Below are positions 6,123 through 10,519 of a DNA stretch of 10,519 nt, piece after piece. The position numbers and the translations under genes are program-made. The stretch is from Candidatus Moranbacteria bacterium CG_4_9_14_3_um_filter_42_9. Its GTDB lineage: Bacteria > Patescibacteriota > Minisyncoccia > Moranbacterales > UBA2206. Under the pieces are notes generated by a model, which did not search any database, was not told where the DNA came from, and saw only the letters and a list, made by a program, of their open reading frames with translations. The stretch covers positions 1 to 10,519 of the forward strand of contig PFVN01000079.1 of the NCBI GenBank assembly GCA_002790635.1, read 5' to 3'. Each line of letters opens with the position of its first letter. Position 1 is the first letter of the stretch.

Positions 6123-6150
6123 TTTAATACTTACCTTAATATGTATTAAA
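6123..6150. repeat. 28-bp palindromic element, copy 1
   Basis: It reads TTTAATACTTAC-CTTAA-TATGTATTAAA. Read in reverse complement, copy 2 (6977-7004) has the same two arms and differs only in the central 5 nt. The arms are near-perfect inverted repeats (TTTAATACWTA). It lies between the end of the 5436 gene and its terminator. Confidence 0.6.
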
Positions 6151-6276: not shown

Positions 6277-6942
6277 GTGCCTGTCATATTTGAGGACATT
6301 GATCCGATCGGAAAGGATTTTCTGGCCAATTTTCTGGCCGCGACTGTTCACGGAAACTGCTACCATTTCGCGCTTGCACTCTACCGAAACCTGGACTGGT
6401 CCATAGTGGGTGTGGTAAAGGACTCCGCAATCCAGCACGCCGGTGTGAAATCTCCGGATGGCAAATTCTGGGACGGGCGGGGAGCGATTTCCAGAAAAGA
6501 GTTCGCTTCTCTAGTAGCCCCTCCGTGGGTTATCCGTGCTGTCGGGGAGGAGGAACTCGTTTCCGCGTTTCCTGTCAGTGAGCGGATGGTTGAAACGATA
6601 TCGGAAAGAGCGCAGATGGTCTGGCCGCACCTGCCCTGGAAAAAGGGAACTCTTCGGGACAGGATCGCCGCATTTGCCAGTGACCTGGAAGCATTGAGCC
6701 GGAAACATAAGTTCTGGATATGCGGAACGACTCCCATGAGCCTCCCAGTAATCTTCCAGGGTTATGATGATGAAGCCGGCTATGCAGTCAGGCCTAGCGT
6801 GGACGGCAATGCCCACATCATCAACCGAGTGATCGGACGGATTAAACCAACCGGAAAGCCCGGCCGCCGGCAGACAACTCTGTCAGCGGCCTTTTTATTC
6901 CTATTTTCCGGCCGACTAGAGCCGGTTTTTTTAGTGGTATAA
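6277..6942 (+). CDS. Possible papain-like Cys/His/Asp protein, unknown function; 3' end doubtful
   Basis: The GTG start is supported by GGGAAAGGAG 6 nt upstream and by the promoter at 6194. The product (221 aa as it stands) is soluble with no signal peptide. Near the N-terminus, GNCYHFALALYRNL (about 26-39) is followed by QHAGVKSPDGKFWDGRG (about 53-69). This Cys-helix, His-strand, Asp order (C28, H54, D66) resembles papain-like or transglutaminase-like peptidases and some toxin domains; that reading is inferred from motifs only. The remainder includes a helical segment (about 100-150) and GYDDEAGYAVRPSVDGNAHIINRVIGRIK. The last 30 or so codons run through two terminator-like hairpins (6862-6932), and the stop lies inside the next promoter's TATAAT. 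The true C-terminus is therefore probably near residue 189, with its stop lost or shifted. Confidence 0.7.
   Translation: MPVIFEDIDPIGKDFLANFLAATVHGNCYHFALALYRNLDWSIVGVVKDSAIQHAGVKSPDGKFWDGRGAISRKEFASLVAPPWVIRAVGEEELVSAFPVSERMVETISERAQMVWPHLPWKKGTLRDRIAAFASDLEALSRKHKFWICGTTPMSLPVIFQGYDDEAGYAVRPSVDGNAHIINRVIGRIKPTGKPGRRQTTLSAAFLFLFSGRLEPVFLVV
6862..6896 (+). terminator. Terminator hairpin overlapping the 3' end of the 6277 frame
   Basis: GGCCGC (6862-6867) pairs with GCGGCC (6886-6891). An inner GACA/TGTC stem (6873-6884) lies inside, and five Ts follow. It lies within the annotated reading frame. Confidence 0.65.
6908..6932 (+). terminator. Second terminator hairpin in the 6277 3' region
   Basis: CCGGC (6908-6912) pairs with GCCGG (6921-6925) around CGACTAGA, followed by seven Ts. 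The stem is short but the T-run is good. Confidence 0.55.
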
Positions 6943-6962: not shown

Positions 6963-7004
6963 AATTGATTCTTGAATTTAATACATACTTCAGTAAGTAT
7001 TAAA
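6963..7004. repeat. Palindromic element, copy 2, with shared upstream flank
   Basis: The palindrome at 6977-7004 reads TTTAATACATA-CTTCA-GTAAGTATTAAA. The flank plus left arm (6963-6988) matches copy 3 (9475-9500) at 23 of 26 positions in direct orientation. It lies in the leader of the 7038 gene, downstream of the TATAAT. Confidence 0.6.
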
Positions 7005-7393: not shown

Positions 7394-7425
7394 ACATTCC
7401 GACATTCTTAAGAATATTAGAATGT
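7394..7425. promoter_or_regulatory. Operator 1: 32-bp near-palindrome over the regulator promoter
   Basis: The site is built from ACATTC half-sites: two direct copies with an 8-bp period, then their inverse. It matches operator 2 at 29 of 32 positions. The central 9-bp arms CGACATTCT and AGAATGTCG pair perfectly. It covers the -35 and most of the spacer of the promoter ending at TATAAT 7431-7436, as expected for autorepression. Confidence 0.8.
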
Positions 7426-7436
7426 CGTGGTATAAT
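7408..7436 (+). promoter_or_regulatory. Promoter of the winged-helix regulator gene
   Basis: TGG-TATAAT (7428-7436) is a perfect extended -10. TTAAGA at 7408-7413, 17 nt upstream, is a weak -35 and lies inside operator 1. Confidence 0.75.
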
Positions 7437-7467
7437 GATTTAAGGTAAAAAAGTAAAATAAATAAAT

Positions 7468-7794
7468 ATGCTAGCCAAGAAAAAGAGATCTTCATATGGA
7501 AATATATCAATTTCCAAGAAAAAATCTCCCAAGCAAATAGAACGCCATTTGAAGGGAGTGGCGAATCATCGGCGAATTGAAATTTTGTTCCTGATTGCCA
7601 GCAATAAGGGGATTACGGTGGATAAAATTACTAAACGTCTAAATTGCAACTTTAAAACTATTTCAGTCCATACTCAGCGCCTGGCCCAAGCAGGACTTAT
7701 AAGAAAGGACTATCAGGGAAGAGCAGTGGTCCATGAGCTTTCACCCTACGGAAAAACTTTATATAACTTCCTAAAAACATTCCAACATTCTTAA
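7468..7794 (+). CDS. ArsR-like winged-helix transcriptional regulator
   Basis: The 108-aa product has a basic N-terminal tail (1-22) and an ArsR-type winged-helix domain. KQIERHLKGVANHRRIEILFLI (about 22-42) is the first helix pair. ITVDKITKRLNC with FKTISVHTQRLAQAGLI (about 49-78) forms the helix-turn-helix, and RKDYQGRAVVHELSPYG (about 79-95) the beta wing. The ELCVCDL-type metal site of classical ArsR/SmtB sensors is absent, and the only Cys is C60, so a metal signal is not supported. Its gene is bracketed by two nearly identical 32-bp palindromes, one over its promoter and one over its stop codon. This strongly suggests autoregulation and control of the 7874 gene (inference). The ATG has no SD. 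Confidence 0.85.
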   Translation: MLAKKKRSSYGNISISKKKSPKQIERHLKGVANHRRIEILFLIASNKGITVDKITKRLNCNFKTISVHTQRLAQAGLIRKDYQGRAVVHELSPYGKTLYNFLKTFQHS

Positions 7795-7808
7795 GAATGT
7801 TGGAATGT
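7777..7808. promoter_or_regulatory. Operator 2: perfect 32-bp palindrome across the regulator stop codon
   Basis: The half ACATTCCAACATTCTT is followed by its exact reverse complement, so all 16 pairs match. The last codons and the TAA of the regulator (7792-7794) lie inside it. It ends 4 nt before a TTGACT box, so a bound protein could block or activate transcription of the 7874 gene. A 16-bp hairpin in RNA is also possible, but no T-run follows, so termination is less likely. Confidence 0.8.
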
Positions 7809-7811
7809 CCT

Positions 7812-7842
7812 TTGACTTTCACGGTCCGGCGGGAAAAAATAT
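7812..7842 (+). promoter_or_regulatory. Weak candidate promoter for the 7874 gene
   Basis: TTGACT (7812-7817) is a good -35. The best -10 is AAATAT at 7837-7842 with a long 19-nt spacer, so the assignment is tentative. A poor promoter next to an operator would fit an activated gene. Confidence 0.35.
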
Positions 7843-9474: not shown

Positions 9475-9500
9475 AATTAATTCATGAATTTAATACTTAC
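9475..9500. repeat. Repeat element, copy 3 (half-palindrome)
   Basis: AATTAATTCATGA followed by ATTTAATACTTAC matches copy 2 at 6963-6988 in 23 of 26 positions. The inverse right arm is missing here. It ends 18 nt before the ATG of the flavoprotein gene. Confidence 0.5.
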
Positions 9501-9518: not shown

Positions 9519-10229
9519 ATGCATACGCTAAAATTGCTGGAAAAAAAAGAACTGGCCGAAGGAACGATGGCTTTTTATTTCGGGAAGCCCGCAAGTTTCA
9601 GTTATCTCCCCGGGCAATACGCCTTCTTCTCCATCGGCGAGAAAGGACTATTTAAAAAGAAATTGGTCCGGCATTTCACCCTGATCACCATCCCCTCGGA
9701 GGACCGGCTCGGCTTTGCCACCCGGATGCGGGCCGAAAGCGATTTTAAAAACAAGCTCAAGGCCATGCCGATCGGCAGCCCGGTGGACATAAGCGAACCG
9801 TTAGGGAGTTTCATCCTGCCCGAATCGGCCGGCGCCCCGCTCGTCTTTCTGGCCGGCGGCATCGGCATCACTCCGGGTTATTCAATGCTCCAAAGCGCGG
9901 CCGCTGCCGGCTCGGCTCAGGAGATCACCTTGTTCTATTCCAACCGCAACCCGAAAGCCACCGCTTTTTTGGCAGAACTGAAGGGACTCGCAAGCGATAA
10001 GATCAAAATTGTCGCCACCATGACGGATGACGGTCTCAGCCTGGCGGAGTGGGACGGCGAACGGGGACGGATCAGCCCGGAACTCATAAAAAAATATGTG
10101 GCTTCCTGGCCAGAAGCCCTTTATTACATGTCCGGACCGCTTGAGATGGTCAAGGCCATGAAAAAAATGCTGACTGAGATGGGCATTAAGTCCGCTCAAA
10201 TCAAGATCGAAACTTTCACCGGATACTAA
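9519..10229 (+). CDS. Ferredoxin reductase-like FAD/NAD(P)H oxidoreductase
   Basis: The 236-aa product has the full two-domain FNR layout. In the FAD domain, YLPGQYAFFSIG (about 29-40) is followed by RHFTLITIP (51-59), the RxYS-type flavin motif, and EPLGSFIL (93-100). In the NAD(P) domain, LAGGIGITPGYSML (111-124) is the nucleotide loop, with LYYMSGPLEMVKAMKKML (201-218), and it ends in IKIETFTGY, a typical FNR C-terminus. No 2Fe-2S ferredoxin domain or membrane segment is attached, so an electron partner must be separate. It would pass electrons from NAD(P)H to an unidentified acceptor. No clear SD is seen before the ATG. The exported MsrA gene lies 63 nt downstream. Confidence 0.9.
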   Translation: MHTLKLLEKKELAEGTMAFYFGKPASFSYLPGQYAFFSIGEKGLFKKKLVRHFTLITIPSEDRLGFATRMRAESDFKNKLKAMPIGSPVDISEPLGSFILPESAGAPLVFLAGGIGITPGYSMLQSAAAAGSAQEITLFYSNRNPKATAFLAELKGLASDKIKIVATMTDDGLSLAEWDGERGRISPELIKKYVASWPEALYYMSGPLEMVKAMKKMLTEMGIKSAQIKIETFTGY

Positions 10230-10280
10230 GCCTGTTATAAGGAAAAACGCGGAACAGGGAATTAATTAGCGAAATTTTTG

Positions 10281-10310
10281 TATTATCAGGGCATGAGATA
10301 CCTGATAATA
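10281..10310. promoter_or_regulatory. Perfect inverted repeat around the msrA start codon
   Basis: TATTATCAGG (10281-10290) and CCTGATAATA (10301-10310) are perfect 10-bp arms. The loop GCATGAGATA contains the start ATG. C plus eight Ts follow, giving a terminator-like form. TATTAT at 10281-10286 could also be a -10 box, which would place the transcript start at or next to the ATG. The site may be an operator, an attenuator, or the terminator of the flavoprotein gene. Confidence 0.6.
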
Positions 10311-10519
10311 CTTTTTTTTATTCTTCTTATGGCTATTGGTTTAGCGGGACTTAGCAAGGATAATCCGACCAGAAATCCGCAAGCGGTGCCGAACCAGACC
10401 AATTCGGCCCAAGCCGTGCTGGCGGGCGGCTGCTTTTGGTGCGTCGAGGCGGATTTCGAAAAGCTGCCCGGCGTCTTGGACGTGGTTTCCGGCTACGGCG
10501 GGGGGAAAGGAGAAAATCC
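10293..10519 (+). CDS. msrA: Peptide methionine sulfoxide reductase MsrA, exported form (3' end outside window)
   Basis: The frame begins [20 protein letters not shown], a signal peptide or membrane anchor, then a short Asn/Pro/Gln-rich linker. The MsrA N-terminus [20 protein letters not shown] follows (catalytic Cys in GCFWC, about residues 50-54), then [15 protein letters not shown]. MsrA reduces methionine-S-sulfoxide in proteins, and the leader implies repair of proteins outside the cytoplasmic membrane. The window ends after 75 codons. The ATG at 10293 lies in the loop of an inverted repeat; an in-frame ATG at 10329 would destroy the signal sequence, so the first is preferred. The upstream flavoprotein could belong to the same redox unit, but this is not shown. 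Confidence 0.92.

Follow-up and report, generated by a model that had tools for sequence, protein, structure and literature searches.

The window, by which we mean the whole stretch of 10,519 nucleotides analysed here, carries a 415-bp unit on its forward strand (positions 7394–7808) in which a regulator gene lies between two copies of a 32-bp palindrome, hereafter P. The upstream copy, Op1 (7394–7425), forms the left end of the unit and the downstream copy, Op2 (7777–7808), forms its right end; the two are identical at 29 of 32 positions. Op2 is perfectly palindromic: its ACATTC half-sites lie at 7777 and 7785 and its GAATGT half-sites at 7795 and 7803. The arms of Op1 pair at 13 of 16 positions. 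The palindrome consensus matches the window four times, in two places on both strands, and has no match in any of 200 dinucleotide shuffles. The regulator gene (7468–7794, forward strand) encodes 108 amino acids, and its predicted promoter on the same strand consists of a −35 hexamer TTAAGA (7408–7413) at the centre of Op1, a 17-bp spacer and a −10 hexamer TATAAT (7431–7436) that lies 5 nt outside Op1. Together the hexamers match the consensus at 10 of 12 positions, and a TG precedes the −10. At the other end, the regulator's stop codon TAA (7792–7794) falls within Op2, which as RNA would form a 14-bp hairpin (the fold of 7750–7840 has a z of −3.93). The positions of both palindromes, the overlap of Op1 with the −35 and spacer of the regulator's TATAAT promoter, and the overlap of Op2 with the stop codon had all been claimed in the initial annotation, and each is confirmed here.

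Outside the window, the same genome (801 kb in 107 contigs, about 81% complete) contains three further copies of P, arranged in tandem with a 53-bp spacing (L198, G000:C105, 1269–1406); the triplet sits upstream of a Trp-repressor-like gene (PF01371). The window also holds a second palindrome of 28 bp, TTTAATACNTAC..GTATTAAA, at 6123–6150 and 6977–7004, where its copies flank an ORF at 6277–6942. With up to 3 mismatches allowed, this palindrome occurs only at those two places genome-wide, its backwards control occurs once, and a half-copy lies at 9475–9500, ahead of a gene at 9519. At 10278–10517 there is presumably the first part of a gene similar to peptide methionine sulfoxide reductase A whose product has a signal peptide, as judged by eye.

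By its predicted structure and family matches, the 108-aa protein is an ArsR-type winged helix. Its Pfam matches to MarR (29 bits) and HTH_5 (24.4 bits) are weak but above their cut-offs, an hmmsearch links it to HlyU (5e-11), and its AF2 model (pLDDT 86.8) has ArsR, CzrA, HlyU and CadC chains as its top Foldseek matches (TMq 0.66–0.74). Against the NCBIfam metalloregulator NF033788 it reaches 42 of 55 bits, below the cut-off, and neither alignment A1 (22 sequences) nor A2 (37) has a cysteine column that is fully or almost invariant, in agreement with the earlier statement that the usual ArsR metal site is lacking. PF01797 (Y1) is absent among the regulator's Pfam matches at E 0.1, no transposase family appears among its Pfam, NCBIfam or Foldseek matches, and the unit, with its single ArsR-fold ORF, encodes no recombinase. 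The regulator family is patchily distributed. Within the order, a cut of E ≤ 1e-20 finds it in 26 of 128 genomes and a cut of 1e-3 in 39; in a sample of 379 genomes across the phylum, 18 have it at E ≤ 1e-15. There are at most three matches per genome. We rejected a phage or plasmid origin; the window protein has no match among plasmids and phages, and one IMG/VR contig holds a unit together with tspO.

We compared 81 loci, namely the window and the 80 named records that ranked best among 111; the record titles give Patescibacteria groups or only 'bacterium'. A motif-free test, which scores the palindromicity of both sites and the identity between them, was calibrated on 283 displaced controls. 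A bracketing pair scores beyond their 99th percentile in 75 of the 81 loci; two of the 283 controls also exceeded this threshold. The unit in these 75 loci has a median length of 369 bp (range 327–552). Six loci fail the test. L064 sits at the edge of a contig, and L063 retains only the last half-site of the upstream P (U). In L078 an upstream site is present as well, but within an ORF start called too early. L101 has the downstream P (D) alone, L121 has U alone, and L105 has neither by score. Gene calls are simple ORF calls, and many loci come from MAG contigs, which can be chimeric. The half-sites vary by subfamily (ACATTC, ACATCC, CTATTC, TTATCC and others), and the two sites within one locus are alike, at least 29 of 32 positions being identical in 34 of the 75. 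U is centred 12–199 bp (median 42) ahead of the start codon, and D is centred −2, 7 or 15–18 bp from the stop codon in 61 of 75 loci. With one mismatch allowed, TATAAT starts 2–6 nt outside U in 44 of 75 loci and 2–6 nt outside D in 6 of 75, with 5 of 75 and 5 of 75 in the outward controls.

Two general roles for the paired sites were tried and rejected. T-runs follow D in 18 of 74 loci versus 43 of 292 controls, and we do not treat Op2 as a general intrinsic terminator, since these counts are not decisive when the other strand of U gives 31 of 75. As for DNA looping by helically phased sites, a spacing of 335 bp, equal to 32 turns, recurs in 11 of 73 units, but a circular test on all, unique and off-peak distances found no peak at 10.5. 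We also observed a second type of winged-helix gene, of about 112 aa, that is bracketed by P (L262 1831–2246, L079 6518–6952); its products are apparently membrane-anchored, with the segment judged by eye, and the downstream P again lies at the stop codon. Fragments of this gene type occur near P in L253, L254, L064 and L130.

The protein and its site vary together. When protein columns are paired with arm positions, the association is strongest for residue 66 (codon 7663–7665) with arm positions 5 and 13 (z of 31 and 35 over shuffles), which are the fifth base of both half-sites. Residue 66 lies close to the beginning of the predicted recognition helix (residues 62–74, codons 7651–7689 on the forward strand, placed by the AF2 model). 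Where it is serine or alanine the base is T, and where it is glycine the base is C or A, the exceptions numbering at most three in each case. Once corrected for descent, the covariation of residue 66 is not significant, the independent changes being few: a tree built without those columns gives one supported pair of independent changes, and five in all. Because residue 66 tracks both half-sites, one recognition helix per half-site fits, and the arrangement is consistent with two dimers on four half-sites.

Across genomes, P occurs in 20 of 26 regulator-bearing genomes versus 12 of 102 regulator-less ones (p 2e-10), and within the window's family f1 in 13 of 14 versus 1 of 20. The initial annotation had proposed a scan for the 32-mer to ask whether it co-occurs with this regulator family, and these counts show that it does; the palindrome without that link, which it had named as a refutation, is seen in part only, in those 12 genomes of the order that carry P but no regulator. 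One genome, G051, is regulator-less and yet has eight copies of P. The backwards-pattern control has no match among those of the 128 genomes that were listed with their control, and that of the second pattern has none in 23 genomes. On these comparisons the regulator belongs to the P sites and very likely represses itself. Where a compact autoregulated switch for a cell-envelope gene had been proposed, the autoregulation is upheld by the bracketing in 75 of 81 loci, the placement of the −10, the covariation and the co-occurrence; the control of an envelope gene is not.

We now turn to the boundaries of the unit. Locus pairs, which are not independent of one another, share at least 72% identity over the unit in 79 cases; neither flank is similar in 70 of them, and a flank is shared on at least one side in the other 9. 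Flanks were compared up to 300 bp, a few being shorter, and the 14-nt left flank of L072 hardly tests that side. For those of the 70 pairs at 75% identity or more, identity is about 0.2–0.3 from 7 nt outside P, and with plain blastn most of the 45 matches listed end near the outer edges of P. Some pairs are old or plainly vertical: L077 and L086 are syntenic, and L097 and L098 have a regulator synonymous identity of 0.31 versus 0.62 for rpoB, so selection alone could give sharp boundaries in old pairs. It cannot explain the boundaries of pairs such as those among L072, L079 and L081, whose regulators have synonymous identities of 0.72–0.87 versus 0.26–0.34 for rpoB (62–66% at the amino acid level). 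In L129 and L134 the corresponding values are 0.63 and 0.29, and the regulator exceeds rpoB in 10 of the 11 pairs compared, L097/L098 being the exception. Among 17 pairs examined, 11 are non-syntenic with a synonymous identity of 0.62 or more, and L063 shares 387 bp with G082 at 98% (98–100% over the unit) with flanks that have no match.

Such comparisons show that some units have been transferred horizontally between distantly related Patescibacteria, and P-regulator-P appears to move as one unit. The initial annotation had missed this, and also that P behaves like a repeat dispersed through genomes. We found no target-site duplication, the lengths of direct repeats being like those of shuffled flanks (73 units). 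A search for the empty site of L063 found no flank match in six related genomes, save one 71% match in G086.

Beyond the units, pattern matches to P number 0–24 per genome (128 + 23 genomes), and some lie within genes. P is in frame within tspO (L088, L108, L128 and one IMG/VR contig), mnmA (L110) and hsdS (L261), and it is absent from the tspO of L107, L099, L141 and L122. The five in-gene copies that we read (L088, L108, L128, L110, L261) use the same frame, [HR][PT][YN][IK]LEN[VI]RM, and by eye the remaining two frames contain a stop. Fifteen extra sites fall in ORFs of the simple caller; those of L088, L108, L110 and L128 are the ones among them that were read in frame, L261 being a later addition, and most of the others fall in short or doubtful ORFs. 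At L092 the downstream P is fused to the C-terminal half of tspO, at the place where relatives hold an internal P, apparently by deletion between two P copies. Truncated units, composed of P, the promoter and the first bases of the gene, lie at 3459 in L092 and at 2001 in L111.

Several further observations concern repeats near P. Genome G505 (L130, L111) has 24 P matches, several with a further shared upstream module of about 60 bp; 81-bp repeats lie close by and P is nested in larger repeats, so that in this genome what spreads may be a longer repeat than P itself. Genes with a weak SWIM domain have P on both sides at L092 2688–3490 and L128 4187–5010, the match of L128's gene (17.3 bits) being below the cut-off. 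An IMG/VR contig of 40,750 bases catalogued as viral (L225/L304) holds a unit and a tspO with an internal P, and may be host DNA. A remnant at 3534 in L092 resembled, to our eye, the start of a 16S rRNA, but it has no Rfam match. L063, L064 and L096 contain a separate family of dispersed palindromes, TCCTCATAATCCCACGACCGTATAATTATGAGGA and its variants.

What the unit does for its neighbours bears on how it should be explained. The gene that follows the window's Op2, earlier called M23-like, matches no Pfam family even at E 5 and no NCBIfam entry, and its AF2 model (pLDDT 34.8) is unusable; it has partial matches only, in 3 of 52 related genomes. The initial annotation read the unit as a local switch for this envelope gene and suggested asking whether the palindrome co-occurs with it. 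A relative does follow the L087 unit (38.5% identity over 187 aa of the core), and a weak TTGACT-17-AAAAAT lies beyond Op2, as a local switch would have it. However, the pairing of unit and downstream gene recurs just that once, in two of 81 loci including the window, first neighbours mostly differ between loci, and neither the promoter scan nor the sequence has a TATAAT 2–6 nt past Op2. The downstream site is moreover retained ahead of convergent genes: a convergent ORF comes next in 17 of 73 loci, compared with 93 of 450 in the background, and the distance of this site to the stop codon takes the same few values whatever comes next, convergent genes included. Pfam, run on 10 of the 17 convergent ORFs, put 3 over the cut-off, and that of L128 is an ORF antisense to tspO. 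We give a dedicated envelope-gene switch almost no credence.

A broader version would be an ordinary autoregulated repressor with a regulon, in which selection maintains only the gene and its two operators, so that similarity ends there; larger pieces would have been transferred and their flanks later lost, and solo P would be operators for tspO, SWIM-like and glycosyltransferase genes. In keeping with this, TspO-like proteins are the commonest neighbour, in 15 of 81 loci with 9 directly downstream (a single-linkage blastp cluster, with Pfam run on two members, L107 and L128), P lies just upstream of the SWIM-like genes of L092 and L128, and a solo P precedes a glycosyltransferase gene in L176 and L203, a relative of which follows a unit in G082 (L070). 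Third positions are also near saturation in some pairs. Yet non-syntenic pairs with synonymous identities of 0.62–0.94 still have no common flank, a P that lies inside a gene's coding part cannot serve as the operator of its promoter, and divergent promoters show no excess of the 70 extra P sites outside ORFs (6 in divergent and 13 in convergent gaps, versus 91 and 93 of 631 background gaps). We consider such a regulon unlikely, if credible. In another reading, which we regard as improbable, a Y1 transposase (IS200/IS605, RAYT-like) mobilises P in trans as a repeat of the REP kind, with the regulator as cargo that has P as its operator. PF01797 is present in 29 of 32 genomes with P versus 42 of 96 without (p 3e-6), and within family f1 in 13 of 14 versus 11 of 20 (p 0.024), and P is a 32-bp palindrome that is also found within genes. 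This association may, however, mirror overall mobile-element load or kinship; by eye, no Y1 gene lies between P copies among the matches listed, the nearest pair among them is about 1.1 kb apart (G007 C14), and the sequence of P tracks the regulator's recognition helix. That the winged-helix protein itself moves an autonomous IS-like element would fit the promoter in the left end, the right end at the stop codon, the sharp boundaries and the truncated copies; with an ArsR fold, no transposase family among the protein's matches, no target-site duplication in 73 units and at most three family matches per genome, we find it very improbable.

The explanation that we favour, with modest confidence, is that the P-regulator-P unit works as a small regulatory cassette, complete in itself, and spreads between Patescibacteria by horizontal transfer. 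The ArsR-fold protein would bind P, most likely as two dimers with one recognition helix per half-site, and at Op1 it would cover the −35 and shut its own promoter; strong comparative evidence speaks for both the binding of P and the block of the promoter. At Op2 the bound protein would probably be a roadblock to the transcription of its own gene, much like LacI at O3, or alternatively P would serve as a hairpin terminator of the regulator's transcript; Op2 probably acts on the regulator's own transcript rather than as an operator of the next gene. The unit would be inherited or transferred as a block that ends at the outer edges of P, with recombination at P after DNA uptake as the favoured mode of movement, and P copies would recombine together to yield solo P and truncated units. 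Solo P near promoters may provide extra binding sites in trans, and other solo P may be a dispersed repeat that is tolerated in genes only as an open frame.

Parts of this cassette resemble known systems. ArsR/SmtB regulators (HlyU, CzrA, CadC, SqrR) share the fold and size of the protein, and they have a self-operator over the −35, as with Op1; unlike them, the family described here has no conserved cysteine, a 32-bp operator with four half-sites and a second operator at the stop codon. Rickettsia palindromic elements (RPE) are longer than P, and we know of no bracketed regulator gene for them. Both, as far as the cited pages on RPE-bearing proteins in Rickettsia go (the Ogata reference in PMC2635572), are palindromic repeats that lie in frame inside protein genes, here tspO, mnmA and hsdS. 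LacI at O3 is described, in the excerpt cited, as a roadblock that stops the repressor's own transcript (PMC3711431), and there too a repressor site lies past the promoter on its own transcription unit; in contrast to that excerpt, the stop-codon site here is found in nearly every family member and shows no helical phasing.

The nearest published architecture that we found is the REP/RAYT pair. REPtrons, in the portions of the two papers cited, combine REP palindromes with a RAYT/TnpA_REP transposase (PMC2817692, PMC8266576), usually with more than 100 REP copies per genome (PMC2817692). As in those accounts, one gene lies between two copies of a short palindrome (as seen here in 75 of 81 loci), the palindrome accompanies the protein, with solo copies elsewhere in gene-bearing genomes, and pieces of the gene are caught beside palindromes. 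The protein here is, in contrast, an ArsR-fold repressor without a Y1/HUH domain, P is a promoter operator and also lies within genes, and its copies number 0–24 rather than more than 100 per genome. P-regulator-P thus resembles a REPtron in its anatomy and is not a member, because the transposase is missing. A repressor-only REPtron, in which the ArsR-fold protein helps the 32-bp site that it binds to spread and the binding site is the mobile entity, seems to us rather doubtful. The protein would bring P copies together for recombination or guide a resident Y1 transposase, changes in recognition-helix specificity would found new palindrome families, and P would colonise intergenic DNA and genes.

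In the open-licence PMC literature we found nothing on a P-regulator-P system. If the cassette explanation is true, a transcription factor can travel together with its operators in a self-bounded package of about 370 bp. Such a package would bring along a promoter, an end site and binding sites ready for use, and would offer a direct route for the spread of regulation in bacteria with very small genomes. The family is also a source of dozens of natural protein-operator pairs whose specificity has changed, and it allows tests of how palindromic repeats spread without a transposase of their own.
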